From Rufibacter sp. XAAS-G3-1 (GTDB taxonomy: Bacteria; Bacteroidota; Bacteroidia; Cytophagales; Hymenobacteraceae): 64,000 nt of DNA. The notes below the pieces were generated by a model, which saw only the letters and a program-made list of their open reading frames with translations, had not been told where the DNA came from and made no database searches. The position numbers and the translations under genes were made by a program. Below are positions 520 to 62,242 of the stretch, piece by piece. How positions within the stretch are numbered: position 1 is the first letter of the stretch; every line of letters begins with the position of its first letter. The stretch lies in NCBI RefSeq assembly GCF_013623775.1, contig NZ_JABFAM010000004.1, positions 1 to 64,000 on the forward strand, written 5' to 3'.

Positions 520-554
520 GTTTCCTGCCTGTTTCATAAAAACAGGCAGGAAAC
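520..554. repeat. PAL palindrome 1
   Basis: Perfect 15-bp arms (GTTTCCTGCCTGTTT and its complement) around a 5-nt loop, 35 nt after the stop of the T9SS protein. The CCTGCC block differs from the usual AGGCC in both arms, a compensatory change. Confidence 0.8.
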
Positions 555-599
555 GGCGGCACAGGCAGCTGCTTGCGGCCGTGTACAGATAAACCATCT

Positions 600-637
600 G
601 TTTAAGGCCTGTTTTTATGAAAGTAGCCTAAAAACGA
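600..637. repeat. PAL palindrome 2 (imperfect)
   Basis: TTTAAGGCCTGTTTTTA against GAAAGTAGCCTAAAAAC; the outer TTTAAGGC/GCCTAAAA portion pairs, the centre is loosened. Confidence 0.55.
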
Positions 638-717
638 CAGCCCAGGCAGACGCTTGCACCAGGGTAATTGCTCTAAATACCGGTTTTTGAAAAACTCTAA
701 ACAGGTTCAACTCTAAA

Positions 718-754
718 AGAAGAGGTTTCCTAAGATGGAAGCCTCTTCTTTTTT
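718..754 (+). terminator. Rho-independent terminator after the T9SS protein
   Basis: 13-bp stem (AGAAGAGGTTTCC with GGAAGCCTCTTCT, one G-T pair), 6-nt loop, followed by a T run. Confidence 0.8.
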
Positions 755-821
755 ATAGGAGGCTTAGACTAGCTTGGTAAAACAATTGAATGCAGCTCTG
801 GATTTACGAAGTTGAGGTATA

Positions 822-857
822 GTTTTTAGTCTGTTTTTCAGAAAAGACAGTTAAAAC
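822..857. repeat. PAL palindrome 3
   Basis: GTTTTTAGTCTGTTTTTC against GAAAAGACAGTTAAAAC; AGTCTG is matched by GACAGT-like bases on the right, so the arm was changed on both sides. Confidence 0.65.
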
Positions 858-918
858 CACCAACACCCAATTACCTTGCTTCCCCTTTCTTTACCGTCTG
901 CCAAATTCTGCGTACACT

Positions 919-926
919 TACCTTTC
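919..926 (+). promoter_or_regulatory. Bacteroidota -7 box candidate for the SDR gene
   Basis: TACCTTTC, one mismatch to TAnnTTTG, 21 nt before the ATG at 948. Confidence 0.4.
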
Positions 927-947
927 CATATCTACTATTAAAAGCAA

Positions 948-1721
948 ATGCAGAACAACCGTTGGAGTTTAGAAGGCCGCCGCGCCTTGGTAACCGGGGG
1001 AACCAAAGGTATAGGCGCCTCTATTGCAGAGGAATTGCTTTCCTTCGGGGCCGAGGTACTGATTGTGGCCCGCAAAGAACTGGAGGTCAACCAAGCCGTC
1101 ACCGACTGGCGGGCCCGTGGCCTGAAAGCATCGGGCATGGTGGCCGACGTAAGTCAACCCGCTGACCGGCACAACCTGCTCCAACTGGTGGGAAACACCT
1201 GGGGCTCGTTAGACATTCTGGTGAACAACGTAGGCACCAACATCCGGAAAAAAATTGGCGAGTACACGCCCGAGGAATACAATTACCTGCTGCAAACCAA
1301 CCTCACCTCGGCCTTTGAGCTGTGTAGACTGTCGCACCCCTTTTTAAAGCAATCTCCGCACGGAAGCGTGGTAAACGTCTCGTCGGTATCAGGGTTGGGG
1401 CACGTACGCACCGGGGCGATTTACGGTATGACCAAAGCGGCTTTGATACAGCTCTCCAAGAACCTGGCCGGCGAATGGGCTCCGGACGGAATACGGGTGA
1501 ACTGCGTGGCTCCGTGGTACATCAGAACGCCATTGGCCGACCAGGTTTTGCAGAACCAGGAGTACCTGGAAAGTGTGTTGAGCCGCACCCCTTCCCGCAC
1601 CATCGGCAACCCCGAGGATGTGGCGGCTGCCGTGGCCTTTCTGTGCATGCCCGCTGCCGCGTACATCACCGGCCAGTGCGTTGCCGTGGACGGCGGCATG
1701 AGCATTAACCTGTTTGGATAA
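948..1721 (+). CDS. SDR family NAD(P)-dependent oxidoreductase
   Basis: A 257-residue classical short-chain dehydrogenase/reductase. The Rossmann glycine motif TGGTKGIG is at 16-23, the NNVG motif at 93-96, Asn118, catalytic Ser146 and the YGMTK motif with Tyr159 and Lys163, so the N-S-Y-K tetrad is complete. Arg42, just after the second beta strand, suggests NADPH preference. The C-terminal DGGM segment is typical. Overall it resembles tropinone-reductase-like or 3-oxoacyl-ACP-reductase-like members; the substrate cannot be read from sequence. Cytosolic, single gene, separated from the convergent ATP-grasp gene by a strong bidirectional hairpin. Confidence 0.88.
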
Positions 1722-1738: not shown

Positions 1739-1782
1739 AAACAGAAATCCCTCCGTGCATGAGCATGGAGGGATTTCTGTTT
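1739..1782. terminator. Bidirectional terminator between convergent genes
   Basis: Perfect 16-bp arms (AAACAGAAATCCCTCC and complement), extended by four more pairs (one G-T) to an ATGA loop. A-run and T-run on either side let it work on both strands. A degenerate PAL-like half follows at about 1784-1808. Confidence 0.85.
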
Positions 1783-1805
1783 TGGGCCTGTTTTTCTTAA
1801 ATGAG

Positions 1806-2699
1806 CTAAGAAACCGAAGAAGGAATCTCCTGCAGCATCTGCATCAAGGCCTGGTAGTAATTCTCTTGGGAGTTCGGGTTGGTGTGCAGGTACAGGAACG
1901 GTTCAATCAGCTCCAACTCCATCAATTGCAGTTCCTCACCTACCACCACACCGTCCACGCGGGCGTAGAGGCAACCTTCGGCAAACTGGCCTACTAATTT
2001 CTGGGCCTGTGCTAACAGATGGGCCGGTGCTTCCTGCGGATGGATAGTGCCCCCGAAGAAATGCTGCACCCTGAAATCACCGGACTTGGCCGACTTCAGC
2101 AGGCAATGGCTGTACTTTCCGTTGAAGAACAGGAACGACCACTCGCCCTCCTCCTGAATCTGCGGCATGAACGGTTGGGCCAGGAAGTCTTCTTCCCGAA
2201 GCAACCCTTCCAGCTTCGGCACCACTTGCTCTGCTTCTTCTTTAGAGACAATAAACGTATTCTTCGCGCCGCCGCTCACGCAGGGTTTGATAATAAGTTT
2301 ATCTGTCTGGAAGCGGGTAAAGTATTGCTCCAACGGTACGGCGGTTCCTCTTTTGAGCAAGGCCGAAGGAACAATGGGCAGTCCTGCTTTCTCCACCTCC
2401 AGCAGATAATGCTTGTCGGCGTTCCAGCGGATGGTGGAAATGGGGTTCAAGGTGCGAATGTTCATCGCCTCCATGCGGTCTAGCCATGCACGGAACTCGT
2501 TAAACTTGTCAAAGTAATCCCATGGCGATTTGAAGACGGCTACGTCATATTGCTGCCAGTTCACGGCAGGGCCATTCCAGTCTTCAAGGGTGATGTCTAC
2601 TCCCTTGGAAGTCAGAAACTCCAGGAGAACGCCATCTTCGCTTCCGCTTAATGAGCCATAGCTGTGGATGGCTTCATAGGTAACTAATGCTAATTTCAA
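1806..2699 (-). CDS. ATP-grasp domain-containing protein
   Basis: A 297-residue protein of the RimK/glutathione-synthetase-like ATP-grasp fold. The N-terminal part (1-110) is a pre-ATP-grasp domain with the FKSPWDYF segment; the central part carries the nucleotide-binding strand KLIIKPCVSGGAKNT (~137-152), and the EEDFLAQPFMP and GEWSFLFFNGKYSH strands follow. A metal-binding acidic pair with the pattern LMELELIEP lies near 262-270. Such enzymes ligate a carboxylate to an amine or thiol through an acyl phosphate; the family includes the cycloserine-pathway enzyme DcsG, to which the SPWDY-type N terminus is reminiscent. Substrate unknown. It stands alone, convergent with the SDR gene. Confidence 0.8.
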   Translation of the reverse strand: MKLALVTYEAIHSYGSLSGSEDGVLLEFLTSKGVDITLEDWNGPAVNWQQYDVAVFKSPWDYFDKFNEFRAWLDRMEAMNIRTLNPISTIRWNADKHYLLEVEKAGLPIVPSALLKRGTAVPLEQYFTRFQTDKLIIKPCVSGGAKNTFIVSKEEAEQVVPKLEGLLREEDFLAQPFMPQIQEEGEWSFLFFNGKYSHCLLKSAKSGDFRVQHFFGGTIHPQEAPAHLLAQAQKLVGQFAEGCLYARVDGVVVGEELQLMELELIEPFLYLHTNPNSQENYYQALMQMLQEIPSSVS

Positions 2700-2794: not shown

Positions 2795-2838
2795 CTTGCT
2801 GTTCGGGAGTTCTACTCTTGCTGTTCGGGAGTTCTACT
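2795..2838. repeat. Tandem 22-bp duplication
   Basis: Two exact copies of a 22-bp unit beginning CTTGCTGTTCGGGAG; the second runs into a perfect palindrome ending CTCCCGAAC. Confidence 0.85.
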
Positions 2839-2981
2839 CCCGAACCCGCCTGCTGCGGAGTTCCACTCCGCCGGGAGCCATGGGCAAAAGAAGGGGAGTG
2901 GAACTCCGAAAGAGCGGTTTGATTCTCTGGAATCTTTTGGAAATAGAAATAAATACCCGTTCATTTTCCCTACAAGAGTAG

Positions 2982-3069: not shown

Positions 3070-3105
3070 GTTTCTGGGCTACTTTTCAGAAAACAGCGGT
3101 TAAAC
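3070..3105. repeat. PAL palindrome 4 (weak)
   Basis: GTTTCTGGGCTACTTTTC / GAAAACAGCGGTTAAAC; ends one base before the stop codon of the minus-strand M20 gene. Confidence 0.5.
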
Positions 3106-4441: not shown

Positions 4442-4477
4442 GTTTAACTGCCGATTTTCAAAAAACAGCTTGAAAAC
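4442..4477. repeat. PAL palindrome 5 (weak)
   Basis: GTTTAACTGCCGATTTTC / AAAAACAGCTTGAAAAC, 13 nt upstream of the M20 start codon, so probably within its promoter or leader. Confidence 0.5.
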
Positions 4478-4755: not shown

Positions 4756-4796
4756 GTTTTAGGTCTGTTTTCTTAAAACCAACCAAAAAACAAAAC
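4756..4796. repeat. PAL palindrome 6 (weak)
   Basis: GTTTTAGGTCTGTTTTC on the left is nearly canonical; the right arm is decayed with A runs. It ends 2 nt from the stop codon of the ThDP enzyme gene. Confidence 0.5.
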
Positions 4797-6600: not shown

Positions 6601-6636
6601 GTTTTAAGGCTTCTTTTGACAAAAGAGGCTCTAAAC
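6601..6636. repeat. PAL palindrome 7
   Basis: GTTTTAAGGCTTCTTTTG / CAAAAGAGGCTCTAAAC. Its position argues that the ThDP enzyme starts at 6592, not 6622. Confidence 0.6.
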
Positions 6637-6683: not shown

Positions 6684-6719
6684 GTTTTTGAGGTGTTTTC
6701 CGAAAAACAGGCCTGAAAC
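6684..6719. repeat. PAL palindrome 8
   Basis: GTTTTTGAGGTGTTTTCC / GAAAAACAGGCCTGAAAC, mid-gap between two divergent genes. Confidence 0.6.
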
Positions 6720-6894: not shown

Positions 6895-9846
6895 ATGCGC
6901 CATCGGCTTTTACTCCCGCTATTGCTCCTGTTTCCGTTTTTCGCTCCTGCCCAGCAACCGTACTGGCAGCAGGAGGTGAACTATAAAATTGACGTGACGC
7001 TGGATGATGTGCACCACACGCTTTCGGCCACGGAGCAGATTGAGTATGTGAATAATTCGCCGGCAACGCTGACCTTTCTGTACTTCCACCTGTGGCCCAA
7101 TGCCTACCAAGACCGTAGCACGGCCTTCGCGAGGCAGCAACTGGTGCACAATGAAGACCGGTTCCACTTCGCCCCGAAGGAGGCGCGGGGTTCCATTTCG
7201 GGCCTGGATTTCAAAATAAACGGCCAAAACGTGACATGGGAGCTTGATGCGCAGAACCCAGACATTGCCAAACTGACGCTGAACCAACCGTTGGCTCCGG
7301 GCGGGCGCATCACCATCAGCACGCCGTTCCAGGTGAAGTTGCCCGATTCTTTCTCCCGGTTGGGGCACGTGGGCCAATCGTACCAGATTTCGCAGTGGTA
7401 CCCCAAACCGGCGGTGTTCGACCACAAAGGCTGGCACCCCATGCCCTACCTGGATCAAGGCGAATTTTACTCGGAGTTCGGGTCTTTTGATGTGCGGATT
7501 ACGTTGCCTGCCAACTACACCATTGGTGCTACCGGCGAATTGCAGAACCCCGAAGAACAAGCCCGTTTGGAGAGCCTGGCGCAGGCCACTGCGGCTAAAA
7601 AGGAATTTGATGCGGAGGATTTGGCCTTTCCGGCCTCGGCGGAAGCCACCAAGACCCTGCACTACCGGCAAGACCGCATCCATGACTTCGCGTGGTTCGC
7701 TGACAAACGGTTTAATGTCCTGAAAAGCCAGGTTACGTTGCCGCATTCCAAACGCACCGTTACCACGTGGCTCCTGTTCACCAACCGCGAAGCCCAGAAA
7801 TGGGTGAAAAGCGTGCCCGATATCAATGATGCCGTGTATGCTTATTCGCTGTGGCTGGGCGATTACCCGTACGCCCAAGCTACGGCGGTAGATGCGGCGT
7901 TAAGCGCTGGGGCAGGCATGGAGTACCCCATGGTAACGGTCACCGAGCCGGAGGCCATCATCCACGAGGTGGGCCACAACTGGTTTTACGGCATTTTGGG
8001 CAGCAATGAGCGGGAGCACCCCTGGCTGGACGAGGGCATCAACTCGTACTATGAATTCAGAACCAAAGCCCGGCGCACCCGGTATGCGGGTATGGTGTCC
8101 AGCGAGGTGAACCAGAATGCCTTCGGGAAGTTCTTGGGGGTTGATGATTTGCCCCCAGCCGCCATTGACAATCCGGCCTATTTATCGGCGGCCAGCCGGG
8201 GCTTGGATCAACCGGTGACGGCCCCCGCCGCCCGGTTCAGAACCCTCAATTACGGCACTATCGTTTATCTGAAAACAACTCAGTTGTTCCAGTATTTAGA
8301 GAAGTACCTGGGCACCGCCCGCTTTGACAGCGCCATGCACACGTATTACCGGCAGTGGCAGTTCAGGCACCCCTACCCCGAGGATTTGCAAACCACGCTG
8401 GAGAAATCTACGGGAGAGTCGCTGGGTTGGTTTTTCCAGGAACTGCTGCCTTCCACCACCCTCCCAGATGCGCACTTAGCCAACGTAATTACCTCCGGCG
8501 GAACTACTCAAGTTGTAGTGCGGCAACAAGGGAAACTGGCCTTGCCGGTACAGGTTGCCGCTTTAGACCCTGAAGGAAAAGTGGTGGAATCGCACTGGAC
8601 TAAACCCGGCGAACGGGAGCAAACCGTCACGTTTCAGGCGCAGGGTATTGACCGGGTGGTGGTAGACCCCGAGTACCTTTTCCCGGAATTGGATCGTGGC
8701 GACAACCAGTTCCGTTTACGGCGTGTTTTCCCGAAAAGTGAGCCAATCCACCTCCAACCGTTCTTGGGCGTAGACCGCATAGACCAGAAACAGCTCTTCG
8801 TGGCACCTTCCCTCGGGTTTAACACCTATGACGGGTTTCAATTGGGAGCCGCATTCTACAACTCGTTCCTCACGGAGCACAAACTCAATTATGTGGTCAC
8901 GCCCATGTACGGCTTTAAGAGCAGCCGTCTCACCGGACTGGCCGATGTGCGTTTCCGGCTTCCGGCGCAGGGTTTTCTGCGGAAGGTGGAGTTGGGGGTA
9001 CAGGGCCAGCGGTTTGCCAATTTCCATACCGTCACGCCCAGCCTTACTTTCCAGAACCGGCTCACTAACCCCAACACCTTTAGGCAGCAATTGACGTTGG
9101 CCTGGCATTTTGTGCAGGATGATTTCCTCCCGGATTTCCAGGCACCCCGACTGGCTTATCTGTTAACCACCAAAAACGCGGTGAGCGGCACCCGCTTTGA
9201 CTTTGATGTAACCCATTTCAGGTACAAAGTAGCCGGTTTGGTTGGCGGTGTTGAACCCAGCGGAGGAACCCTTAGGAGCGGGTTGCAAGCGGGAAGTTTC
9301 TCCCCCACCCGCTTTAGAGTGCGCCTGGAGAATTGGCACAAGTACCGGCCCGGCAAAGAAATAAAACTCCGCGGCTTTGTGGGATTGATGGCGGGAAACC
9401 AGACGGGAGAGTTCGTGCTGGGCTTGGCGGGTAGCCCCGATTACCTGAAGCAGACACCCTTTTTCAACCGAACTGACATGTACACCTCGGCCGAAGGCCT
9501 GACCTCCACCAGGCAGACTGACCGCCAGGACGGCGGGTTCAGGAGCGGGGTGCCCGTGGTGAGCCGGGAATGGATGGCGACCCTCAACCTCACCGCCGAT
9601 TTACCCGTGACGCCTTTGGCCGTGTACCTTGATTTGGGCAGGGTGCAGGAACAGGACAAAATCTTCTACGGCACAGGCTTGCAATGGAGTTTCTTCAACA
9701 ACGCCGTGCAGATTTACTTTCCGGTGGCTGGGGACAACTATGAAAGCACCTTCCCCAAGAGCTTCAAAGACTTTAGAAACAACATCAGGTACTCCCTGAG
9801 CCTGCAAAAGCTGAACCCCTTCAGATTGTTGGATGAGTTGCAGTAG
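6895..9846 (+). CDS. M1 family metallopeptidase with large C-terminal extension
   Basis: A 983-residue exported protein; signal peptide to about residue 20 (LLLLFPFFAPAQ). The N-terminal half is an M1 aminopeptidase: exopeptidase motif GAGMEYP, zinc site HEVGH at 357-361 and third ligand Glu380 in WLDEG, exactly 18 residues on. A helical region follows to ~560. From about 600 to the end the protein changes to alternating-strand, aromatic-rich sequence (repeated GLQ, Y-F-strand patterns) that looks like outer-membrane beta-barrel or a long beta domain, ending ...LNPFRLLDELQ. M1 enzymes remove N-terminal residues from peptides, so a surface or periplasmic peptide-scavenging role fits. The C-terminal barrel idea is inference from strand pattern only. 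Confidence 0.85.
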   Translation: MRHRLLLPLLLLFPFFAPAQQPYWQQEVNYKIDVTLDDVHHTLSATEQIEYVNNSPATLTFLYFHLWPNAYQDRSTAFARQQLVHNEDRFHFAPKEARGSISGLDFKINGQNVTWELDAQNPDIAKLTLNQPLAPGGRITISTPFQVKLPDSFSRLGHVGQSYQISQWYPKPAVFDHKGWHPMPYLDQGEFYSEFGSFDVRITLPANYTIGATGELQNPEEQARLESLAQATAAKKEFDAEDLAFPASAEATKTLHYRQDRIHDFAWFADKRFNVLKSQVTLPHSKRTVTTWLLFTNREAQKWVKSVPDINDAVYAYSLWLGDYPYAQATAVDAALSAGAGMEYPMVTVTEPEAIIHEVGHNWFYGILGSNEREHPWLDEGINSYYEFRTKARRTRYAGMVSSEVNQNAFGKFLGVDDLPPAAIDNPAYLSAASRGLDQPVTAPAARFRTLNYGTIVYLKTTQLFQYLEKYLGTARFDSAMHTYYRQWQFRHPYPEDLQTTLEKSTGESLGWFFQELLPSTTLPDAHLANVITSGGTTQVVVRQQGKLALPVQVAALDPEGKVVESHWTKPGEREQTVTFQAQGIDRVVVDPEYLFPELDRGDNQFRLRRVFPKSEPIHLQPFLGVDRIDQKQLFVAPSLGFNTYDGFQLGAAFYNSFLTEHKLNYVVTPMYGFKSSRLTGLADVRFRLPAQGFLRKVELGVQGQRFANFHTVTPSLTFQNRLTNPNTFRQQLTLAWHFVQDDFLPDFQAPRLAYLLTTKNAVSGTRFDFDVTHFRYKVAGLVGGVEPSGGTLRSGLQAGSFSPTRFRVRLENWHKYRPGKEIKLRGFVGLMAGNQTGEFVLGLAGSPDYLKQTPFFNRTDMYTSAEGLTSTRQTDRQDGGFRSGVPVVSREWMATLNLTADLPVTPLAVYLDLGRVQEQDKIFYGTGLQWSFFNNAVQIYFPVAGDNYESTFPKSFKDFRNNIRYSLSLQKLNPFRLLDELQ

Positions 9847-9986
9847 AATGATTGATGGAGAGATGGTATGATGGAGAGAATGGATTGGAAAGGACAAAAA
9901 ATGCCAATAATGATTTTAGTGGAAAGAATCCCGTTTTTGGCTTATCTTACAGGAAACAAGCTCCAAACACCACCCTACCCTTGCCC

Positions 9987-10598: not shown

Positions 10599-10634
10599 GT
10601 TTCTGGGCTGTTTTCTCAAAATCGCCCCCTAAAC
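10599..10634. repeat. PAL palindrome 9
   Basis: GTTTCTGGGCTGTTTTC / CAAAATCGCCCCCTAAAC, 6 nt after the stop of the pyrophosphatase-like gene. Confidence 0.6.
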
Positions 10635-12415: not shown

Positions 12416-12451
12416 GTTTTAAGGTTGTTTTGTGGAAAACGGCTTTGAAAC
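12416..12451. repeat. PAL palindrome 10
   Basis: GTTTTAAGGTTGTTTTG / GAAAACGGCTTTGAAAC, 27 nt after pgi. It overlaps a spurious open frame starting at 12432. Confidence 0.65.
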
Positions 12452-13041: not shown

Positions 13042-13086
13042 GGGGTGTTTATGGCCTGTTTTCCTGAAAACGGCCATAAACACCCC
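13042..13086. repeat. PAL palindrome 11 (strong)
   Basis: Outer arms GGGGTGTTTATGGCC and its exact complement, inner GTTTTC/GAAAAC; about 22 paired positions. Arm sequence departs from the consensus on both sides in a matched way. Confidence 0.85.
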
Positions 13087-13128: not shown

Positions 13129-13164
13129 GTTTTTGCATCAATTTTCAGAAAACGCCTCTAAAAC
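13129..13164. repeat. PAL palindrome 12 (weak)
   Basis: GTTTTTGCATCAATTTTC / GAAAACGCCTCTAAAAC; central core kept, flanks decayed. It lies about 40 nt before the promoter box of the HAD gene. Confidence 0.5.
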
Positions 13165-15021: not shown

Positions 15022-15073
15022 AATCCCGTTTTAGGGCTGTTTTCAGAAATCCAGCCCTAAAACGGGATTTTTG
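15022..15073. terminator. PAL palindrome 13 serving as bidirectional terminator
   Basis: Perfect 18-bp arms (AATCCCGTTTTAGGGCTG and complement) with the PAL core in the loop, followed by TTTTTG. It lies between the convergent pirin and bestrophin genes and is the clearest case of a PAL doing terminator work. Confidence 0.85.
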
Positions 15074-16016: not shown

Positions 16017-16321
16017 AATTCAACAGTGCCAGCCACGCGCTAGCTTCTGCGCACGCAAAGGTAGCGCGTGCGGCTACAAATCTACTTCAAGGCAGACTTT
16101 TACCCGCAATATCTCTGAATAACGCCTGTTTTTTTGAAAATAGCAGCTAACCGAAGAAAGGATGAAAGGGAGCTTGGGCTTTAAACAATTAGCAGCAGAA
16201 TACATCAGTTTTTATGGAGAACCTGACCAGTACCTCCGGCCACGGCTAATTTATACGGGACACGTATAGTAGAAAAACGCCGTATGAAAACTAAATTGCC
16301 CCTACTCCTGTTTTCAGCCTT
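16017..16321. other. Intergenic region before the pterin genes
   Basis: Divergent promoter region for the bestrophin and queD-like genes. Only a degenerate PAL half (about 16127-16153, CGCCTGTTTTTTTGAAAATAG) is visible; I see no box with a clear TAnnTTTG match. Confidence 0.5.
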
Positions 16322-18483: not shown

Positions 18484-18909
18484 ATGAACAAGATACTGCT
18501 CCTACCATTTCTGATACTTCTTACAATTCCTGCATTTTGCCAAATTGAAGCAGATTCAATATTTATTTACAAAGGCTTCAAACGTGCTGGGACAACGGCA
18601 AGACTACAGCATAACCATCATGACCTCGCTTCCCGGCAAGCTGAAACAGTGAAATTGGACGGAGCAGAAACAACCAATTTGAAAGCACTTTTTAAAGAAA
18701 CAAAGGAAAAACGCTTCTTTCAACAGAAGCATGGAGGCGAAATATGTTATGCAGTGGTTTGGTTTGAAGGGAATAAATACAACTACATAATAGAGGGGAC
18801 TACCGATTTCGCAAGAATGGTGAACTTGAGTACAAGGAGAAAGTGGACTTTAGAAGAACCAAAAAAGGTTGAAGCACTGCATGCACTTGTAAAGAAAAAC
18901 TGGCCATAG
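18484..18909 (+). CDS. Hypothetical secreted protein
   Basis: 141 residues, not recognised. A clear signal peptide (MNKILLLPFLILLTIPAFCQ) gives a mature protein of ~121 residues rich in charged residues, with a possible alpha/beta pattern around YAVVWFEGNKYNYIIEG. No cysteine in the mature part except one in GGEICYAV. Codon use is noticeably more AT-rich than in the neighbours, so it may be a recent acquisition. It starts 36 nt after the epimerase and could share its transcript; a hairpin terminator and a PAL follow at once. Confidence 0.65.
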   Translation: MNKILLLPFLILLTIPAFCQIEADSIFIYKGFKRAGTTARLQHNHHDLASRQAETVKLDGAETTNLKALFKETKEKRFFQQKHGGEICYAVVWFEGNKYNYIIEGTTDFARMVNLSTRRKWTLEEPKKVEALHALVKKNWP

Positions 18910-18985: not shown

Positions 18986-19025
18986 GTGTTTTGAGCCCGT
19001 TTTTCAGAAAATAGGCCCAAAACAC
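18986..19025. repeat. PAL palindrome 14
   Basis: GTGTTTTGAGCCCGTTTTTC / GAAAATAGGCCCAAAACAC, directly abutting the preceding hairpin. Confidence 0.7.
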
Positions 19026-19030: not shown

Positions 19031-19057
19031 CCTGTGAGGTCTCCAAGACCTCACAGG
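19031..19057. repeat. Perfect 12-bp hairpin
   Basis: CCTGTGAGGTCT, 3-nt loop, exact complement. Confidence 0.7.
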
Positions 19058-19070
19058 TGTAGAGTAAACT

Positions 19071-19141
19071 GGCGCGAGACTCCAGTCTCGTGACTTGGGA
19101 TGAAGCGAGTCTCCAGACTCGCCGGGAACCACCAGCCGGAG
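19071..19141 (-). repeat. Repeat family B, inverted fragment
   Basis: Reverse complement of the first ~70 bp of the family B copies at 34557 and 61905 (GGCGAGTCTGGAGACTCGC core), itself made of two small palindromes. Confidence 0.75.
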
Positions 19142-19310
19142 TGCGCAACAGCAGGAAGGAAGAGGGCACAAATAGTTAGCTCCTTTTCACTTGCTGTTCT
19201 GGAAGAGTGGCAAACGGCAGAAGCGCCTTAGAGCTTGCCCGCACTATCTTTTTAGGAGGACAACATAGGGTAAGATAATGCTACCCGCCTCCCTATCTCC
19301 AATCGTTTAT

Positions 19311-19357: not shown

Positions 19358-19391
19358 GTTTTAGGGCTCATTTCAGGAAAAAGCCTTAAAA
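19358..19391. repeat. PAL palindrome 15
   Basis: GTTTTAGGGCTCATTTC / GGAAAAAGCCTTAAAA, between the terminator and the PBP1A stop codon (7 nt). Confidence 0.55.
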
Positions 19392-19398
19392 GTTCTCC

Positions 19399-21808: not shown

Positions 21809-21844
21809 GTTTACCGCTTCTTTTCTAAGAAACAGGCCAAAAAC
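21809..21844. repeat. PAL palindrome 16 (weak)
   Basis: GTTTACCGCTTCTTTTC / AAGAAACAGGCCAAAAAC, in the gap between the amidase and PBP1A genes. Confidence 0.5.
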
Positions 21845-23013: not shown

Positions 23014-23049
23014 GTTTTCGGGCTACTTTCAGAAAAACTGGCTGAAAAC
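23014..23049. repeat. PAL palindrome 17
   Basis: GTTTTCGGGCTACTTTC / GAAAAACTGGCTGAAAAC, about 130 nt upstream of the amidase start. Confidence 0.6.
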
Positions 23050-23171: not shown

Positions 23172-23207
23172 GTTTAGCGGTTCTTTTTCAGAAAATAGCA
23201 CAAAAAC
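23172..23207. repeat. PAL palindrome 18 (weak)
   Basis: GTTTAGCGGTTCTTTTTC / GAAAATAGCACAAAAAC, 70 nt before the promoter-like TAACTTAG of the next gene. Confidence 0.5.
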
Positions 23208-26005: not shown

Positions 26006-26836
26006 GTGATCCAAGCCCAACAGAAAGCGCCCCGAGTTACTCTTACGCTATTTCTCCTGTGTACTACAGTTCTGTTTCTGGTGCCTTTTCAAGGAAACGG
26101 GCAGGATTTGCAGAAGCCTTTTACAGAGTGCGGAGTAGCAGGCAGCACCACCGTCTATGACTACTCAAAGGAAAGCTGGGTGTATTCTGAGGAAAATGAT
26201 ACGAACCGTGCCTCCCTTCCCGCCTCCACGTTCAAAATACTGAACAGCCTGATTCTGCTGGAAGAGAAAGCGGTGCGGGACGAAAACGAAGTTTTGCCAT
26301 GGGACGGCCAGCAACGAGGAATTCCCGCCTGGAACGCCGATACCGACATGAAAAGCGCCTTCACCAACTCCACGGTTTGGTTCTACGTGCGGCTGGCCGA
26401 GCGCATAGGCCAAGACGAATACCGAAGCTGGCTGAAACGCTGCGGCTACGGAAACGGCAAGCTAAAGAACGGTTTTGGGGCTGATTTCTGGAATTACGGC
26501 GATTTCGCCATTTCACCCAAAGACCAGATTGAGTTCCTGCGGAAGTTGTACGAAGAGAAACTGCCCTTCGCCAAGGAGAACATCCAGAAAGTGAAACAGA
26601 TGATGGCGGCCGAACAAACGCCAACCTACACCCTACGCGGCAAAACCGGCCTGACCAGTTACGGCGGAACCAGCAGCGGCTGGTGGATTGGCTACGTTGA
26701 AACCAAAGGAAACGTCTACTTCTTCGCCACCCGGCTGCACAAAGACCAGAACACCAAAAACGAGAATTTCGCGGCCTGCCGCAAAACCATCACCCACCAG
26801 ATTCTGCGGCAACTGGGCATTTTACCGGCCCTTTAA
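26006..26836 (+). CDS. Class D beta-lactamase (OXA-like)
   Basis: 276 residues with all class D landmarks: serine nucleophile in PASTFK (Ser74, Lys77), SxV motif Ser122-Thr-Val124, YGN at 148-150 followed by FGADFW with Trp162 (the residue that stabilises carboxylated lysine), and KTG at 213-215 in LRGKTGLTSYGG. The start codon is GTG at 26006, which gives a signal peptide ending near FQGNGQ; no ATG is better placed. The enzyme hydrolyses beta-lactams in the periplasm through an acyl-enzyme. No mobile element or integron site flanks it and its codon use matches the neighbours, so it looks like a resident chromosomal gene. It could also be a sensor domain, but the single short domain favours an enzyme. 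Confidence 0.92.
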   Translation: MIQAQQKAPRVTLTLFLLCTTVLFLVPFQGNGQDLQKPFTECGVAGSTTVYDYSKESWVYSEENDTNRASLPASTFKILNSLILLEEKAVRDENEVLPWDGQQRGIPAWNADTDMKSAFTNSTVWFYVRLAERIGQDEYRSWLKRCGYGNGKLKNGFGADFWNYGDFAISPKDQIEFLRKLYEEKLPFAKENIQKVKQMMAAEQTPTYTLRGKTGLTSYGGTSSGWWIGYVETKGNVYFFATRLHKDQNTKNENFAACRKTITHQILRQLGILPAL

Positions 26837-26846: not shown

Positions 26847-26882
26847 GTTTCAAGGTTCTTTTCACAAAAAAAGGCGCTAAAC
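26847..26882. repeat. PAL palindrome 19
   Basis: GTTTCAAGGTTCTTTTC / AAAAAAAGGCGCTAAAC, 10 nt after the beta-lactamase stop. Confidence 0.55.
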
Positions 26883-27303: not shown

Positions 27304-27339
27304 GTTTCAGGCCTGTTTTTCCAAAAGCAGCCCTGAAAC
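27304..27339. repeat. PAL palindrome 20
   Basis: GTTTCAGGCCTGTTTTTCC / AAAAGCAGCCCTGAAAC, 4 nt from the stop codon of the aldose epimerase gene. Confidence 0.7.
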
Positions 27340-29711: not shown

Positions 29712-29721
29712 CAGCGTAGCC

Positions 29722-32507: not shown

Positions 32508-34389
<1,882 letters not shown>

Positions 34390-38163: not shown

Positions 38164-38203
38164 CCGTTTCTGGCCTGTTTTGACCAAAAGATGCCAGAAA
38201 CGG
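38164..38203. repeat. PAL palindrome 29
   Basis: CCGTTTCTGGC and its exact complement as outer arms, TGTTTTGACCAAAAGA core; 39 nt after the kinase stop, so it may end the operon. Confidence 0.75.
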
Positions 38204-43066: not shown

Positions 43067-43102
43067 GTTTTAAGCCTGTTTTCCAGAAAACAGCACCAAA
43101 AC
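43067..43102. repeat. PAL palindrome 30
   Basis: GTTTTAAGCCTGTTTTCC / AGAAAACAGCACCAAAAC, beginning one base after the moxR stop codon. Confidence 0.75.
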
Positions 43103-45171: not shown

Positions 45172-45207
45172 GTTTTAGGCTCCTTTTCTGAAAACCAAGC
45201 GTAAAAC
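45172..45207. repeat. PAL palindrome 31
   Basis: GTTTTAGGCTCCTTTTC / GAAAACCAAGCGTAAAAC, fitted exactly between two convergent stop codons (4 nt on each side). Confidence 0.65.
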
Positions 45208-45211: not shown

Positions 45212-46381
45212 CTATCTTTTCTTGAGCCGGGCCAGAAAAAAATCTGAGTTGAAGTTGAGGTACAGACTATTGGAGAACTCCAGCTGCGGGTCATCCAGAT
45301 CAATGTACGGCTCCAGGCGCAGGGTTAAGGTGAGCCCTTGGGTCAATTCCAGGTCATGCAGGAAGCGCACAATCAGGAGCTGGCGGTTTTTCTGCGTGTA
45401 GTCTGCCGATTTGAAATTGGAGGACACCGACGGGAACAGCTTACCGCCCAGTTCAGAGTAATACCCGTTGCCGCGCCAGTAACTCAGCAGCACGTTCTGG
45501 TATTTGGTGTCTACCCCGGCGTTCAGGTACAAACCGCCGCCCTGCTTGAACGGCTGCACCTTGGTATTGGAAAAGTCTTTCCAGCCCACCACATATGGCT
45601 GAAAGTGCAGCGCCTTCAATACTTTCTTGTCATAGCTTTTCCTGATCACCAGCCCGGCCGCTACGTTGGTCAGGGTCACCAAAGGTAAATCGGCCACATC
45701 AATCTGCCCGCCCCGGTGCTGGGCCGTGAACTGGAGCGGCAAGCCGATGTAGGTTCCCGTTTCGGGGGTGTTTTCCGGAAAATCAAGCGAAACCGGCGTT
45801 CTATAAAGCGTGAGTTCCGCCGAGGCACCGCCCGCTACTTCTTCCTGGAACGGATCCATGCGGCGCAGGTAGCGCTGCCAGTCAATCCAGACATCCAACT
45901 TGGCGCCGGGTTTGTTCAGCAGAAACTGAATCCCGTTCTCCAGCCGGTTGGTGATCACGCGCTCAAAATCATACAGCGGTTCTATGTAGCCGTGGTTCAG
46001 GTGGCCCTCCAGCGTACCAAAAAGCAGGGCCATACCGTTTTCCTCATAGCGGATGGTGAACGTGGGCTGCAGGAGGGAGTATCGGCGCGAGCCGAAGTCT
46101 TTCTGCACCTGCACGCCCGCGTCAATGCGCACGTTGGCCGACGGAAAATAAATGAGCCGCGGGTTGAGGTGATAGCCAAAAAGCGTGTAGCCTTCAGCGA
46201 TGTCATTGAAATACTCGTTGTTCTTCTGAAAACCCAGCACATTGAGCCCCAACTGCAACTCACCGGCCTGGTCGGGCTTTACCGGTCGCCTGAACTCCAG
46301 GGCTTTGTTGTTTAGCTGCGCGAGGGCGGTTTGACCTGCTAGAATAGCAGCGGTGGCTACCAGAAGCCATTTTTTAGACAT
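45212..46381 (-). CDS. Outer-membrane beta-barrel protein, unnamed family
   Basis: 389 residues with signal peptide (MSKKWLLVATAAILAGQTALAQ). The mature protein is composed of repeated short amphipathic strands rich in Tyr, Phe and Leu (GELQLGLNVLGFQKN, LFGYHLNPRLIYFPS, YSLLQPTFTIRYE, LLIVRFLHDLELTQGLTLTLRLEP) and ends in a strand with penultimate positively charged tail, LNFNSDFFLARLKKR. This is the pattern of an outer-membrane porin-like barrel of about 16-18 strands; no family name can be assigned. Its promoter may be the minus-strand TACCTTTC at 46455-46462. Confidence 0.75.
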   Translation of the reverse strand: MSKKWLLVATAAILAGQTALAQLNNKALEFRRPVKPDQAGELQLGLNVLGFQKNNEYFNDIAEGYTLFGYHLNPRLIYFPSANVRIDAGVQVQKDFGSRRYSLLQPTFTIRYEENGMALLFGTLEGHLNHGYIEPLYDFERVITNRLENGIQFLLNKPGAKLDVWIDWQRYLRRMDPFQEEVAGGASAELTLYRTPVSLDFPENTPETGTYIGLPLQFTAQHRGGQIDVADLPLVTLTNVAAGLVIRKSYDKKVLKALHFQPYVVGWKDFSNTKVQPFKQGGGLYLNAGVDTKYQNVLLSYWRGNGYYSELGGKLFPSVSSNFKSADYTQKNRQLLIVRFLHDLELTQGLTLTLRLEPYIDLDDPQLEFSNSLYLNFNSDFFLARLKKR

Positions 46382-46454
46382 AAGAATACGGTTACGCTAC
46401 TGTTTGTGAAATAGAGGCTAAAAACCCACCAACCCACTCTCCTACCCACCTGCT

Positions 46455-46531: not shown

Positions 46532-46567
46532 GTTTTAGGGCTGTTTACAGGAAAACAGCCTTAAAAC
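46532..46567. repeat. PAL palindrome 32
   Basis: GTTTTAGGGCTGTTTAC / GAAAACAGCCTTAAAAC, upstream of recA. Confidence 0.7.
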
Positions 46568-48984: not shown

Positions 48985-49031
48985 AAAACAGTTCAGCCGC
49001 CGGAGTTCCACCCCGGCGGCTGAACTGTTTT
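48985..49031. terminator. Long hairpin terminator overlapping PAL 33
   Basis: AAAACAGTTCAGCCGCCGG and its perfect 19-bp complement around an 8-nt loop. The descending CTGTTTT also forms the left arm of PAL 33, so the two structures exclude each other. Confidence 0.85.
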
Positions 49032-49062
49032 AGGCCCGTTTTCAGAAAATAAGCCTTAAAAC
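49027..49062. repeat. PAL palindrome 33
   Basis: GTTTTAGGCCCGTTTTC / GAAAATAAGCCTTAAAAC. Confidence 0.65.
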
Positions 49063-49229: not shown

Positions 49230-49332
49230 TCCTGAAATTCAGACGCGCGCTTGGTAGCACTTGGGCGTTTCTGGGCTGTTTTTGAAAGAGTTCACCCAAA
49301 CTGCAGAACTCTTTAAAAGTAAACCGCATGCT

Positions 49333-51130: not shown

Positions 51131-51166
51131 GTTTTAAGCCTGTTTTCCAGAAAACAGGCTTAAAAC
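51131..51166. repeat. PAL palindrome 34 (perfect reference copy)
   Basis: Arms GTTTTAAGCCTGTTTTC and exact complement (17 bp each) with a CA centre; 9 nt after the kinase stop and 12 nt before a TACCTTTC promoter-like box. The best example of the family. Confidence 0.9.
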
Positions 51167-51960: not shown

Positions 51961-51998
51961 CGTTTCAGTGCTGTTTTCTGAAAAACAGACCTAAAACG
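51961..51998. repeat. PAL palindrome 35
   Basis: CGTTTCAGTGCTGTTTTC / AAAAACAGACCTAAAACG, 49 nt after the lipoprotein stop. Confidence 0.65.
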
Positions 51999-52054: not shown

Positions 52055-52096
52055 GCCGTTTTTGCCTTGTTTTCGTAAAAACAGCCTATAAACGGC
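52055..52096. repeat. PAL palindrome 36 (in a 5' leader)
   Basis: GCCGTTTTTGCCTTGTTTTC / GTAAAAACAGCCTATAAACGGC, 42 nt with paired GCCGTTT ends. It lies between the promoter box at 52028 and the ATG at 52127, so it would be in the mRNA leader. Confidence 0.7.
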
Positions 52097-53431: not shown

Positions 53432-53469
53432 CGTTTCAGGCCTATTTTCCCTAAAACAGATGTAAATCG
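53432..53469. repeat. PAL palindrome 37 (weak)
   Basis: CGTTTCAGGCCTATTTTCC / AAAACAGATGTAAATCG. Confidence 0.5.
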
Positions 53470-57695: not shown

Positions 57696-57836
57696 TGAGG
57701 TGTGTTCAACAAGCGTAAATACAGAAGACTATTCTCTTTTTCACTGAAGTCTTGATTTTTGACTTGTTTTCAAAAAAGGAAGCCAATACCGCAATTGAAT
57801 GATAGGTGCGCCTTAGCAGGAAATTAGTGGAAAGCC

Positions 57837-58454: not shown

Positions 58455-58490
58455 GTTTTTAGGCTATTTTTACAGAAACAGGCCTGAAAC
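58455..58490. repeat. PAL palindrome 38
   Basis: GTTTTTAGGCTATTTTTAC / AGAAACAGGCCTGAAAC, about 25 nt beyond the NDH-2 terminator hairpin. Confidence 0.6.
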
Positions 58491-59916: not shown

Positions 59917-60068
59917 ATTCAGTTAGCTAGAGGTTTACTTAGAGCCTTGTCTGCGCTTGGGACTCTGTATTATCAATAGACTTATACTGACTTTCCAGTA
60001 TATAAGATATTCTATTTATTGAGAAGTTTAACTTAAAGGCCTTTTCCGTAAATTCCCTAAAGCAAAAA

Positions 60069-60110
60069 GGCGTTTTGGGGCTGTTTTAGGTAAAACAGCC
60101 CCAAAACGCC
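60069..60110. repeat. PAL palindrome 39 (perfect, 19-bp arms)
   Basis: GGCGTTTTGGGGCTGTTTT and exact complement around AGGT. It lies 37 nt from the esterase stop codon on the minus strand. Confidence 0.9.
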
Positions 60111-60146
60111 CTGGGTACAAAACTGAGGGGTACGTTGCGCCTAGCC

Positions 60147-61031
60147 TTATCTGTGGAAGCTATCACCCACAAACTTCAAGACTTCTGGCAGAGCGGTACG
60201 CCAGTAAGACCAGGTATGTCCGCCGTCCCTAACCCTGAATTCATGCGGAATCCGGCGGTCTATCATGGCGGCGTGCAAGGCCATGTTGCCTTTGATCAGG
60301 AAATCGTCGTCACCGCAGTCAAGGTAGTACTTCACTTTCTTGAGTGAGTCTGCGGGAGTGGTCTCCACCATCTTTAGAATGGAGTTCTGGTACCAGTGCG
60401 TGCTCAGGCGTTCTTGTCCCTTGGGGTACGGCCCGTAGATACCCGCAAAGGTTCTGTTGTAATTGTCTTCCGGCATGTTCCTGAATTCTTCATCGGTGAA
60501 GACGGCAGAGCTCAGGGGAGCGGCGGCCGAAAACAACCCGGGGTGTTTCATGGCCATGATGAGCGTGCCGTAGCCGCCCATGGAAAGCCCGGCCACGGCC
60601 CTGGATTCTCTGCTGCTGCGCGTGCGGTACTCTTTGTCAATGTAGGGGATGAATTCTCTCACGAAGAAGTCCTCAAACTTCACTTTGCCGTCTGCGCTGT
60701 TCACGTACCAGGTCACGCCTGCGTCTGGCATCACAATGAGCATAGGCGGAATCTGCCCGGCCTGCATCAGCCGGTCAGCAATGAGATGGGCCTCCCCAAA
60801 CTGCGTCCAGCCGGTTTCATCATCGGTGTAGCCGTGCAGCAGATACAGCACCGGGTAGCGGCGGTTAGATTTCTCGTAGTCTGAGGGCAGGTACACAGAG
60901 TACTTCACGTCCTGCCCAAGAATTTTGCTTTTGGTTTTCAGGCTTTCTCTTAACGTACCTTGCTGAGCCATGGCCTGCCATGAAAGAAGCAGGAAAAGCG
61001 AGAGGAAAAGTTTGCGCATGGGGCGTTTCAT
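60147..61031 (-). CDS. Esterase D / FrmB-like alpha/beta hydrolase, exported
   Basis: 294 residues counted from the ATG at 61031; the next ATG at 61019 (MRKLFLSLF) gives an equally good signal peptide ending MAQQ. The sequence VYLPSDYEKSNRRYPVLYLLHGYTDDETGW, the nucleophile Ser150 in AGLSMGGYGTLIMA, an acidic DCGDDDF and the final His in GGHTWSYWR form the usual esterase triad. Related exported enzymes act on feruloyl or acyl sugar esters, others are S-formylglutathione hydrolases; the signal peptide favours a periplasmic or surface role. The frame's further extension has no support. Confidence 0.88.
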   Translation of the reverse strand: MKRPMRKLFLSLFLLLSWQAMAQQGTLRESLKTKSKILGQDVKYSVYLPSDYEKSNRRYPVLYLLHGYTDDETGWTQFGEAHLIADRLMQAGQIPPMLIVMPDAGVTWYVNSADGKVKFEDFFVREFIPYIDKEYRTRSSRESRAVAGLSMGGYGTLIMAMKHPGLFSAAAPLSSAVFTDEEFRNMPEDNYNRTFAGIYGPYPKGQERLSTHWYQNSILKMVETTPADSLKKVKYYLDCGDDDFLIKGNMALHAAMIDRRIPHEFRVRDGGHTWSYWRTALPEVLKFVGDSFHR

Positions 61032-61405
61032 CTTGTAAGTGACCTTTCTGGCAGGAGTAGCCGGAGTTTGCATGCGCCAAGTATAGTATCTTTCTGCCGA
61101 TTCTCCTCTATTTTCATGTAAAAACAAGCAATAGGCCCCAAAAACCACCTGAACTGCGAAAAGACCTTTACCAACTGAAAAAGATGGCTTGTCTCTGGCA
61201 AGAACTTACCGCCGCTGGCAACTCTGCCCCAACTCTTCCCAGGGGTAACTCTTCTCTAATAAATTCCAGCAACTACGCGGCCATGGACAGTACGGTTCTA
61301 AGGTTATTGGATAGGCCTTCAAAGTAATGATTTCCCTCGCTCGCGTCCCGCGAGCGAGTGCCCTTATTCTGTTTTAGTTTATCATTGCTTCTTCAGAACT
61401 ATCAA
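61032..61405. other. Intergenic region upstream of the esterase
   Basis: Plain sequence with no promoter box that I would trust; family C copy 2 occupies its right end. The open frames seen are not coding. Confidence 0.5.
61331..61395 (-). repeat. Repeat family C, copy 2
   Basis: Perfect CTCGCTCGCG/TCC/CGCGAGCGAG hairpin plus a T-rich flank (CTTATTCTGTTTTAGTTTAT) like that at 29811-29845. Its hairpin ends 48 nt from the SelW-like stop codon, as in the PAP2 copy. Confidence 0.75.
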
Positions 61406-61684
61406 TTACTTTTTGTCTGAATGGCCGAGGCTTTTCCCGGGGTTTACCCGGTCTCGGACGAGTTGCTTGAGCTCTTTTATCTCTGGGAAACGGCCCATCT
61501 GCTTGCGGTCAAATATCACCTGTTCGTTGACCCTGATGATATAGCTGCCGCTGGTTTGGCTGGGCTCCAGAAGCACGCCTTTTACGTCATCTGGGAAGGT
61601 GGTGAGCAGTTCCTGGGCCATGTAGGCAGCCCGAAGCATCCAGCCGCATTTAGGACAGTATTCTACGCAGATGATTGGTTTCAT
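61406..61684 (-). CDS. SelW/Rdx family thioredoxin-like protein
   Basis: 92 residues from the ATG at 61684 (MKPIICVEYCPKCGW); an upstream ATG at 61696 adds four residues. The redox pair Cys10-x-x-Cys13 sits in the first loop, as in selenoprotein W relatives with Cys in place of selenocysteine; GVLLEPSQTSGSYIIRVNEQVIFDRKQMGRFPEIKELKQLVRD is the rest of the Rdx fold with the GxFP motif. These proteins are thought to have redox or glutathione-linked roles; not established here. Cytosolic. Confidence 0.88.
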   Translation of the reverse strand: MKPIICVEYCPKCGWMLRAAYMAQELLTTFPDDVKGVLLEPSQTSGSYIIRVNEQVIFDRKQMGRFPEIKELKQLVRDRVNPGKSLGHSDKK

Positions 61685-62056
61685 AGCCAGAGGCAAGCAG
61701 GGGTTAAAGTTGAGATAGAATCACAGCGTGAGAGAAAGTCTCCCATCGGGCGCAAACAAAACCGGCACAACCAAGAGAAACGGAAAACCACGGAAGATGC
61801 AGAAAAGATGCTATCCCGGCTACTGTACGGCTGGAGCAGCGAGTCAGATGACATTGATGGGTGATTTCTGACAAGATTTGTTAGCTAATGTTACGCCCTC
61901 CGGCTGGAGGTTCCCGGCGAGTCTGGAGACTCGCCTCATCCCGTGGCACGAGACTTTAGTTTCGCGCCAGTGTTTTCTAAAGCCTGTTTTCGCGATGCCG
62001 CCCGCTCCCAAGACCTCGTAGTGTGCGCAGCTCCTGCGAGCGTCTGCGCCAATGCC

Positions 62057-62092
62057 GTTTCCGGCCTGTTTTCCGCAAAACAAGCCTAAAAC
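62057..62092. repeat. PAL palindrome 40 (inside family B)
   Basis: GTTTCCGGCCTGTTTTCC / CAAAACAAGCCTAAAAC. Confidence 0.7.
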
Positions 62093-62204
62093 ACTGGGCC
62101 GAAGGAGGATGCCTGCCTCCGCAGAAGAAACCAACCATAGAAAGCAATGCGTGCCGGAGACAAGGTGCCTGGTCTCTCCCGAAATCTAATAACAGCGCCC
62201 CTGC

Positions 62205-62242
62205 CGTTTTGGGCCTATTTTCCGCAAAACAGCCCCAAAACG
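62205..62242. repeat. PAL palindrome 41 (inside family B)
   Basis: CGTTTTGGGCCTATTTTCC / CAAAACAGCCCCAAAACG. Confidence 0.7.

Follow-up and report, generated by a model that had tools for sequence, protein, structure and literature searches.

High-copy palindromes in bacterial genomes are usually viewed as mobile or RNA elements. Among the described systems, REP/BIME sequences with their RAYT (TnpA-REP) enzymes come closest to the family analyzed here, which we call PAL: as described in PMC3733652 and PMC6006769, they are palindromes of 20–40 bp that are present in high copy, mostly extragenic and partly arranged in mosaics with other hairpins, as PAL is, and atypical REPs without a tag are reported there for a Bacteroidetes subclass. 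DNA uptake sequences (DUS) of the Neisseriaceae (see PMC3630211) resemble PAL in their many genomic copies and in lineage dialects around a fixed core. HIP1 of cyanobacteria is likewise lineage-restricted and of very high copy number, and some cyanobacterial genomes carry alternate palindromes in its place (PMC4390886). We followed up PAL from a 64,000-nucleotide stretch of Rufibacter sp. XAAS-G3-1 (the window) across its genome and genus.

Results

Scanning with a symmetric weight matrix that was trained on 464 kb of the same genome, the window included and thus part of the counted DNA, yielded 52 PAL dyads in the window at a score of at least 16 and none in the reversed window (Table 1). The original prediction had recognized a real family, but its 41 copies were slightly low, because the matrix gives 52 and a simple consensus count is passed by 44 of these dyads. 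With up to three mismatches allowed, the window contains 38 matches to the arm GTTTTAGGCCTGTTTTC, where 0.27 would be expected. In 1.26 Mb of the genome we counted 765 PALs versus 1 in the control, a density of ~1 copy per 1.6 kb that extrapolates to ~3,200 in the whole genome. The palindrome family is real.

According to the matrix, each arm of 17–19 bp comprises a GTTT box, a G(G/C)C box and a TTT box, and the element ends in GTTT/AAAC on both sides; in the source genome its edges are sharp, with no common flank past ~2 nt. The T boxes, above all arm positions 3–4 and 14–15, are the most conserved parts, rather than the TTTTC/GAAAA core first named as such, and the C at position 17 is conserved only weakly. 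Lone arms outside dyads number 404, 175, 76 and 40 at arm scores of 10, 12, 14 and 16, compared with 423, 163, 52 and 14 in the reversed control; the dyad is obligate, and isolated arms slightly outnumber the control only at the highest scores. The site information, 10.6–20.2 bits per arm or ~21–40 bits per dyad, exceeds the ~11 bits that by arithmetic suffice to pick 3,200 sites from 5.3 million positions, which may point to multiple recognition events or to copying.

Table 1. PAL copies and adjoining modules in the window; a score range is shared by consecutive rows
Feature	Positions	Strand	Location	Matrix score	Remark
PAL	520-554	.	tandem gap	33.8	
PAL	600-635	.	tandem gap	43.7	
PAL	822-857	.	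tandem gap	35.3	
PAL	1779-1814	.		32.7-38.8	
PAL	3070-3105	.		32.7-38.8	
PAL	4442-4477	.		32.7-38.8	
PAL	4756-4791	.		32.7-38.8	
PAL	6601-6636	.	divergent gap	36.8	
PAL	6684-6719	.	divergent gap	43.4	
PAL	7195-7230	.	gene	21.1	weak
PAL	8714-8749	.	M1-peptidase-like gene	22.2	weak
PAL	9933-9968	.		26.3-38.5	
PAL	10599-10634	.		26.3-38.5	
PAL	12416-12451	.		26.3-38.5	long hairpin class
PAL	13047-13082	.		26.3-38.5	
PAL	13129-13164	.		26.3-38.5	
PAL	15028-15063	.	convergent gap		within longer terminator-like hairpin, perfect arms 15022-15039 and 15052-15069
PAL	16117-16152	.			weak
PAL	18677-18712	.			weak
PAL	18988-19023	.			
Mosaic modules	19032-19153	.	adjoining PAL 18988		REP_A core and REP_B
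REP_A hairpin core	19032-19056	.			8-nt gap to PAL 18988
REP_B double hairpin	~19067-19153	.			
PAL	19358-19392	.			
PAL	21809-21844	.			
PAL	23014-23049	.			
PAL	23172-23207	.			
PAL	26472-26506	.	gene	17.7	weak
PAL	26847-26882	.			
PAL	27304-27339	.			
PAL	28774-28809	.			
PAL	29677-29712	.			
PAL	31661-31696	.			
PAL	32378-32413	.			
PAL	32825-32859	.			
PAL	34468-34503	.			weak
PAL	34710-34745	.			
PAL	34854-34889	.			
PAL	38166-38201	.			
PAL	43067-43102	.	1 nt past moxR-like stop		
PAL	45172-45207	.			
PAL	45759-45794	.	gene		weak
PAL	46391-46425	.			weak
PAL	46532-46567	.			
PAL	49027-49062	.			
PAL	49267-49301	.			weak
PAL	51131-51166	.			
PAL	51962-51997	.			
PAL	52058-52093	.			
PAL	53433-53468	.			
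PAL	57755-57790	.			weak
PAL	58455-58490	.			
PAL	60072-60107	.			
PAL	62057-62092	.			
PAL	62206-62241	.			

As originally described, many copies follow a stop codon closely: 14 of the 52 start 1–40 nt past one, the moxR copy at 1 nt. In 464 kb, PAL occupies 38 of 45 convergent, 27 of 45 divergent and 99 of 185 tandem gaps of at least 36 bp. Among gaps of 60–100 bp, PAL is present in 76% of convergent (n = 17), 14% of divergent (n = 7) and 25% of tandem ones (n = 73); the expected enrichment at gene ends is present, but the divergent gaps show that PAL is not confined to them. Nor is the family absent from genes, as had been claimed: by gene calls from our own hexamer scripts, not a standard annotator, and with doubtful short ORFs included, four window copies lie within genes, each weak, and in 784 kb of strong genes, the only class in this comparison, 44 copies in all three frames contrast with 1.4 in a synonymous-codon shuffle. 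Genes are depleted of PAL (0.056 versus 2.17 per kb at score 20), not free of it. In-gene copies misfit a strict boundary role. We rejected even spacing, as of a nucleoid ruler: an initial z of −5.1 became −1.0 after permutation that matched gaps by length and type, and the evenness of spacing along the chromosome does not exceed what gap lengths predict. Copies within genes likewise do not serve to fill large gaps (p 0.15).

If PAL were an intrinsic terminator or 3′-end stabilizer, its arms would pair as a hairpin in the transcript. Of 787 copies, 76 are indeed long near-perfect, terminator-like hairpins near gene ends, with 74 in tandem or convergent gaps, none within called genes and ~20% followed by a run of at least five T; G-U outnumbers A-C in this class (81 versus 63), a pointer to RNA for those copies. 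The RNA roles first listed (3′ ends, stability) fit this minority but not the rest of the family: the 711 other copies show no T-run asymmetry, 104 of them occupy divergent gaps and 97 called genes (a count that includes doubtful short ORFs), and their G-U and A-C numbers (1,195 versus 1,128, counted in the 510 that lie in tandem or convergent gaps) reveal no significant preference. When 185 copies are oriented by transcription, their left and right arms are alike at 28 of 29 positions; the exception is a weak asymmetry at 17.

Arm matching within copies (681 copies, spacer 2) exceeds chance at arm positions −6 to 0, 5–7 and 16 and is nil at 8–15, and much of the excess is due to the ~10% long hairpins; with these and the copies in larger repeats removed (n = 380), it is left at 0, 5, 6 and weakly 16. 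At aligned orthologous sites, compensatory double changes exceed shuffles at −5 to 0 (34 versus 18.4, p 0.002), 4–7 (21 versus 12.6, p 0.006) and, weakly, 8–12 (22 versus 14.9, p 0.018), which suggests that some pairing is retained there, and they are not in excess at 13–17 (4 versus 5.3). The covariation originally suspected is real over only some arm positions and chiefly among a fraction of the copies, and maintained pairing holds for a subset. An RNA hairpin for every PAL is rejected by the independence of the arms at 8–15, the G-U counts and the in-gene copies, and we regard a transcript element as a distinctly unlikely explanation of the family. Template-switch correction of quasi-palindromes was also considered as the source of arm matching; in the reduced set, the lack of an effect at 7 next to a strong one at 6 argues against it. 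The matching at 0, 5 and 6 in non-hairpin copies goes against an independent dimer site; a within-genome mixture of dialects could account for it.

PAL was found in all 16 genus genomes examined, with copies that number from hundreds to thousands in a genome and at densities of one order (0.30–0.83 per kb in the stretches scanned), and in five other genera of the family only 7 of 134 genomes contain matches, 1–2 each. Among five sister genera, sampled through one genome each (80 kb), no dominant hairpin family was seen in its place. Rfam gave no match at the gathering threshold, a 191-bp PAL-REP stretch used as query found none among plasmids, and one viral contig carries one dyad. Literature searches, several of them aimed at rival families and with subscription papers mostly outside their reach, returned no description of PAL.

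Between species, presence or absence of PAL agrees in 135 of 150 comparisons of orthologous gaps, all of which have one genome (G000) as common partner, against 93.8 expected from permutation within length-matched gaps and 103.7 within gaps matched for type and length; none of 2,000 permutations reaches 135. Related species largely retain their copies in the same gaps. In the closest pair (G002/G011), 14 PALs are discordant versus 28 aligned, gap-level presence agrees in 46 of 50 cases, and overall identity within PALs, 67.6%, is hardly above the 63.8% in the rest of the gaps; constraint in this pair is visible at box positions. Across 85 aligned orthologous pairs (of 153, conditional on both members scoring as PAL), divergence is 1–2% at positions 3–4 and 3–6% at 14–15, rising to 14, 18, 17 and 48% at positions 1, 2, 16 and 17, 31–53% at 5–13 and 52–66% in the flanks (−11 to −2). 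Among the remainder, 42 fall in gaps that hold another PAL and 26 in gaps that hold none. As read from these alignments, the box positions are under strong constraint at orthologous sites.

In two species, most sampled copies carry a dialect of their own. G005 has AG at positions 5–6 in 58 of 74 arms (37 copies) and G012 has TC there in 38 of 64 (32 copies), as scored with per-genome refined matrices that may favor the dialect found, with reversed controls at 0 in both; both dialects recur at aligned orthologous sites. The abundance of PAL, its restriction to one lineage and its species dialects would suit a DUS-like self-recognition mark for DNA uptake, kept by biased transformation. Single arms, however, are hardly enriched, genes are poor in PAL, and a DUS core is far shorter than the 36-bp PAL unit, which leaves this reading with the slimmest prospects of those weighed. 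Loading of gyrase or another topoisomerase at a BIME-type site without a dedicated protein would agree with the preference for gene ends, where positive supercoils gather, but the sister genera, which must share the same general enzymes, are without PAL, and the degenerate sequence preference of gyrase has little in common with a strict 36-bp dyad spelled in dialects; we consider it very unlikely.

The mosaics speak for another reading, a selfish repeat of REP or MITE type that a transposase spreads and that is conserved only for the motif its enzyme needs. PAL is a module of larger dispersed repeats: 13 of 19 REP_A-like hairpins lie at a distance of 8 ± 1 nt from a PAL, the flanks of 291 of 765 copies lie within dispersed repeats, and near-identical PAL pairs exceed column shuffles (tested with per-genome refined matrices for all genomes but G000), suggesting that some PALs spread by duplication. 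Against this reading stand the between-species agreement in presence, which goes beyond gap length while flanks are nearly saturated, the density, of one order across the genus, and the sharp edges of the motif. Y1 transposases do not track PAL. G007, a genome of the genus with 849 dyads, lacks any Y1-transposase (PF01797) match; 15 transposase loci, one per genus genome where several genomes have more, hold 55 PALs in 117 kb, an ordinary density; and of three loci inspected for inverted repeats, two (L263 and L267) have the transposase gene flanked on both sides by other hairpins. No cognate Y1 gene with PAL flanks, which the original prediction had suggested looking for, was found among the enzymes examined, which rules out only these. 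The proposed REP-like mobile unit is on this evidence unlikely, if the least so of the alternatives to a protein-binding site. Some PALs do travel in larger repeat mosaics.

Discussion

We propose, with slightly more confidence than doubt, that PAL is a two-fold symmetric double-stranded DNA site for a putative genus-specific (or genus-specifically used) protein complex, maintained by selection and perhaps marking transcription-unit boundaries. A symmetric complex would bind the dyad, its protein being present, or so used, only in one genus and co-evolving with the sites. The likeliest role would be a boundary that separates transcription units, whether as a bidirectional roadblock, a topological (supercoil) barrier or an enzyme-loading site; a minority of copies may have turned into, or lie within, ordinary terminator-like hairpins.

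A large number of sites per genome that appear to be held by selection, yet have been respelled in at least two species, can hardly be accounted for unless a trans-acting reader exists. A bolder version, which we put forward tentatively and think somewhat doubtful, is a genus-private architectural code, in which ~3,000 strict 36-bp dyads at most transcription-unit boundaries would be served by a putative co-evolving reader and respelled in place in each species. If true, bacteria would have an equivalent of an insulator/boundary-factor system, born in one lineage. Its reader, once found, would provide a tractable case of a genome-wide DNA code arising and changing its spelling within one genus, and would also test the use of sequence-specific transcription-unit boundaries in bacteria.

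Compared with known systems, ~10% of PALs resemble intrinsic (rho-independent) terminators, whereas the others have no extended kept stem, T-run or restriction to 3′ ends. REPs carry a GTAG or CGTC tag and the PAL consensus has neither; unlike REP/RAYT, moreover, most PALs do not pair along the whole arm, presence is conserved between species, and no cognate transposase was found at the loci examined. PAL fails the RAYT-type REP features tested, namely end tag, PAL-flanked cognate transposase and varying positions. It differs from DUS as an obligate 36-bp dyad that is scarce in genes and in which, by the lone-arm counts, no single short core is enriched alone, and from HIP1, a methyltransferase-linked 8-mer (PMC4390886). 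The sites of sequence-specific nucleoid or boundary proteins are, like PAL, genome-wide dyads. We know of no such protein with ~3,000 sites of 36 bp; PAL shares with these sites a two-fold symmetric double-stranded motif under position-specific constraint at orthologous sites. PAL probably works like them, with a putative binder, and a nucleoid-type DNA site is, among the roles originally listed, the one that survives best.

Copy Number and Motif of the Palindrome

The PAL palindrome is genuine and well beyond chance: a search with its 17-nt arm (≤3 mismatches) confirms it with 38 matches in the window against 0.27 expected and, across the whole genome (5.3 Mb in 73 contigs, the contig carrying the window being 449 kb), returns 2,207 matches versus 28 with the reversed pattern. 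A symmetric weight matrix, whose training set was 464 kb of this same genome, locates 52 dyads in the window at score 16 and 0 in the reversed window; the predicted repeat is thus borne out, at a higher count than the 41 copies first reported. At score 18, the matrix yields 765 dyads in 1.264 Mb versus 1 in reversed sequence (0.605 per kb); by extrapolation, the genome would hold ~3,200. The arms are separated by a 2-nt spacer in 259 of 307 copies and, in the matrix, are conserved at G-TTT (positions 1–4), G(G/C)C-T (8–11), and TTT (14–16); positions 5–6 and 17 are loose, and at position 9 G is as frequent as C. Lone arms are hardly enriched (none at score 12, 175 versus 163 in the control; a slight excess at score 16, 40 versus 14), and therefore the unit is the dyad. 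By our own arithmetic, the dyad carries two to four times the information required to locate 3,200 sites, a surplus suggestive of double recognition or of a degree of copying.

Distribution and Conservation

The arm pattern occurs 386–3,093 times per genome in 16 genomes of the genus; in 43 genomes outside it, matches stay within about 2.5-fold of the reversed control. The full dyad pattern (≤3 mismatches) gives 37–1,762 matches in all 16 (reversed control, 0), while among 134 other genomes of the family, from five genera, 7 have one or two matches and 127 have none. Matrix density in the 16 is 0.30–0.83 per kb, a rough range since the individual stretches span only 4.6–193 kb. Five other genera, represented by 80 kb apiece, stay at or below the reversed control, and no comparable dominant hairpin family was found in those stretches.

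The original prediction had raised a REP-like mobile unit, to be checked by whether copies have moved relative to orthologous genes. The comparison of five same-genus genomes, each with the genome of the window (G000), argues against such movement: PAL presence or absence is concordant in 135 of 150 orthologous-gap comparisons (both 90, neither 45, discordant 15). Gap length and gap type both predict presence; permutation gave an agreement of 93.8 within length and 103.7 within type and coarse length, and 135 was reached in 0 of 2,000 permutations. The 153 PALs in shared gaps comprise 85 aligned to a PAL, 42 whose gap holds another PAL, and 26 whose gap holds none. Across the 85 aligned pairs, divergence is 1–2% at positions 3–4 and 3–6% at 14–15, versus 31–53% at 5–13 and 52–66% in the flanks (−11 to −2). 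In the closest pair found, G002/G011 (28 copies aligned, 14 discordant), it is 2–8% at 3, 4, 14, and 15 versus 34–50% in the flanks.

Matrices refined for each species reveal dialects. The G005 version is GTTTAGGGGCTGTTTTT, with AG at 5–6 in 58 of 74 arms; that of G012 is GTTTTCGGGCTCATTTC, with TC at 5–6 in 38 of 64 arms and CA at 12–13; G006 favours TG; and G000, G002, G009, G010, G011, and G014 are mixed. Shared gaps agree (G005/G012, 22 of 23; G011/G005, 26 of 29; G011/G012, 19 of 22; G000/G005, 8 of 8; G000/G012, 7 of 8). Between G005 and G012, 13 of 18 PALs can be aligned; their divergence is 0.69–0.88 at 5, 6, 12, and 13, 0–0.12 at 1–4, and 0–0.08 at 14–16. The sites have therefore been respelled in place. 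Shared flank information is nearly nil beyond ~2 nt in G000, which speaks against copying with dragged flanks in that genome, and beyond 3 nt in G005; it extends to about −5 in G012 and −4 in G006.

Placement Relative to Genes

Among gaps of at least 36 bp in 464 kb, PAL occupies 38 of the 45 convergent ones, against 99 of 185 for tandem and 27 of 45 for divergent gaps. Its frequency grows with gap length (758 gaps, 1.264 Mb); convergent gaps are occupied even when short (76% at 60–100 bp, n = 17), and divergent gaps mostly only above 200 bp, the outcome expected from promoter avoidance combined with boundary preference. This location suggests a role as a boundary between transcription units, for which in-gene copies pose a difficulty. 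Contrary to the claim that none lies inside a gene, strong genes (783.6 kb) contain 44 copies at score 20, divided among the three frames as 19, 14, and 11; shuffling synonymous codons leaves 1.4. PAL per kb is 39 times lower there than in gaps, and at score 32 genes hold 7 copies and gaps 516. These in-gene copies are better explained at the DNA level than by an RNA 3′-end role. Two long PAL-free stretches of low GC, on contigs C14 and C36 (see table), are perhaps acquired islands.

Hairpin Versus DNA Site

A hairpin role for every copy predicts that the arms match more than their common consensus requires, over the full length of the stem. In 681 copies, a strong excess is seen at −1, 0, 5, and 6 (z 5.9, 6.3, 7.8, and 9.3, respectively) and a moderate one at 7, 16, and −2 to −6, with none at 8–15 (z −1.3 to 1.2); the claim that pairing is maintained holds for a subset. 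A minority accounts for much of the excess, 71 of the 681 matching at ≥8 of 11 outer positions versus ~6 expected. In a larger set, long hairpins number 76 of 787: all but 2, which sit in divergent gaps, occupy tandem or convergent gaps (74), and none falls in a called gene. Of those 74, 53% lie ≤40 nt from a stop codon versus 34% for the rest. Runs of ≥5 T follow 21% of tandem (0% mirrored) and 19% of convergent (7% mirrored) long hairpins; these copies are terminator-like. The remaining 711 lack this asymmetry (4% on either side in tandem and convergent gaps).

Once long hairpins are set aside, along with copies embedded in larger repeats, the 380 left match only at 5 and 6 (z 4.3 and 6.3), 0 (2.8), and 16 (2.2). 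Across 510 tandem or convergent non-hairpin copies, G-U outnumbers A-C by 1,195 to 1,128, an excess that we estimate to be small and not significant; in 550 non-hairpin gap copies, both fall similarly under expectation (positions −1, 0, 5, 6, and 7 pooled), and any tendency at position 9 is towards anti-matching. Compensatory double changes at aligned orthologous sites exceed shuffles at −5 to 0 (34 versus 18.4, p 0.002), at 4–7 (21 versus 12.6, p 0.006), and weakly at 8–12 (22 versus 14.9, p 0.018), with no excess at 13–17 (4 versus 5.3). Taken together, these counts indicate that pairing is partly kept, and that the signal is strand-symmetric and weak or absent across most of the inner arm. 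Dialect mixture within G000 could also account for the matching at 5–6.

Mobile Neighbours and Transposases

The flanks of 291 of 765 PAL copies lie within dispersed repeats. The REP_A hairpin, found beside one PAL of the window, has 22 copies (≤3 mismatches), all ≤200 bp from a PAL versus 49% expected; among 19 REP_A-like copies, 13 have a PAL at a distance of 8 nt (within 1). Some PALs therefore travel in mosaics. Some mosaic repeat alignments begin near the PAL centre.

Of 39 genomes searched, both PAL-bearing and PAL-less, 33 encode Y1 transposases (PF01797), and these include genomes of either kind. The idea of a REP-associated transposase, raised with the original prediction, found no support among the enzymes examined: G007 is without a PF01797 match, yet holds 849 dyads. 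A set of 15 transposase loci, each from a different genome, shows neither REP_A nor REP_B (the second hairpin module), and its PALs are at ordinary density (55 in 117 kb). At two loci, L263 and L267, other hairpins flank the transposase gene on either side; those of L263 are likely that transposase's own REP.

Positions of hairpin mosaics, other repeats, and PAL-free stretches
Feature	Sequence	Position	Observation
Hairpin mosaic (REP_A, double REP_B hairpin, half-PAL-ending module)	REP_A, CTGTGAGGTCT..AAGACCTCACAG	window 19032–19153, plus 18 REP_A copies in G000 stretches	recurring PAL distances
Identical hairpins	GTGCGTAGAG..CTCTACGCAC	L263 3830–3861 and 4537–4568	both sides of that genome's only PF01797 match
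Hairpin		window 32182–32233	resembles the L263 flanking hairpins
Clustered short inverted repeats	GAGTTC-like units	window 2801–2908	
PAL-free stretch		G000 C14 150146–167232	GC 0.44
PAL-free stretch		G000 C36 261770–271610	GC 0.42
PAL dyad in IMG/VR contig		L262 1275–1310	exact pattern match between two ORFs; sole match in the IMG/VR collection

Overall Reading and Known Systems

The best-supported reading is that PAL is a strand-symmetric, putative protein-binding DNA site under selection at very many places, a minority of copies doubling as terminator-like hairpins. No description of the repeat was found in the literature searched. Its nearest known kinds are REP/BIME elements, DNA uptake sequences, and HIP1: PAL fails a tested feature of each of the first two, and HIP1, as described in PMC4390886, differs from it in length and in its link to methyltransferases.
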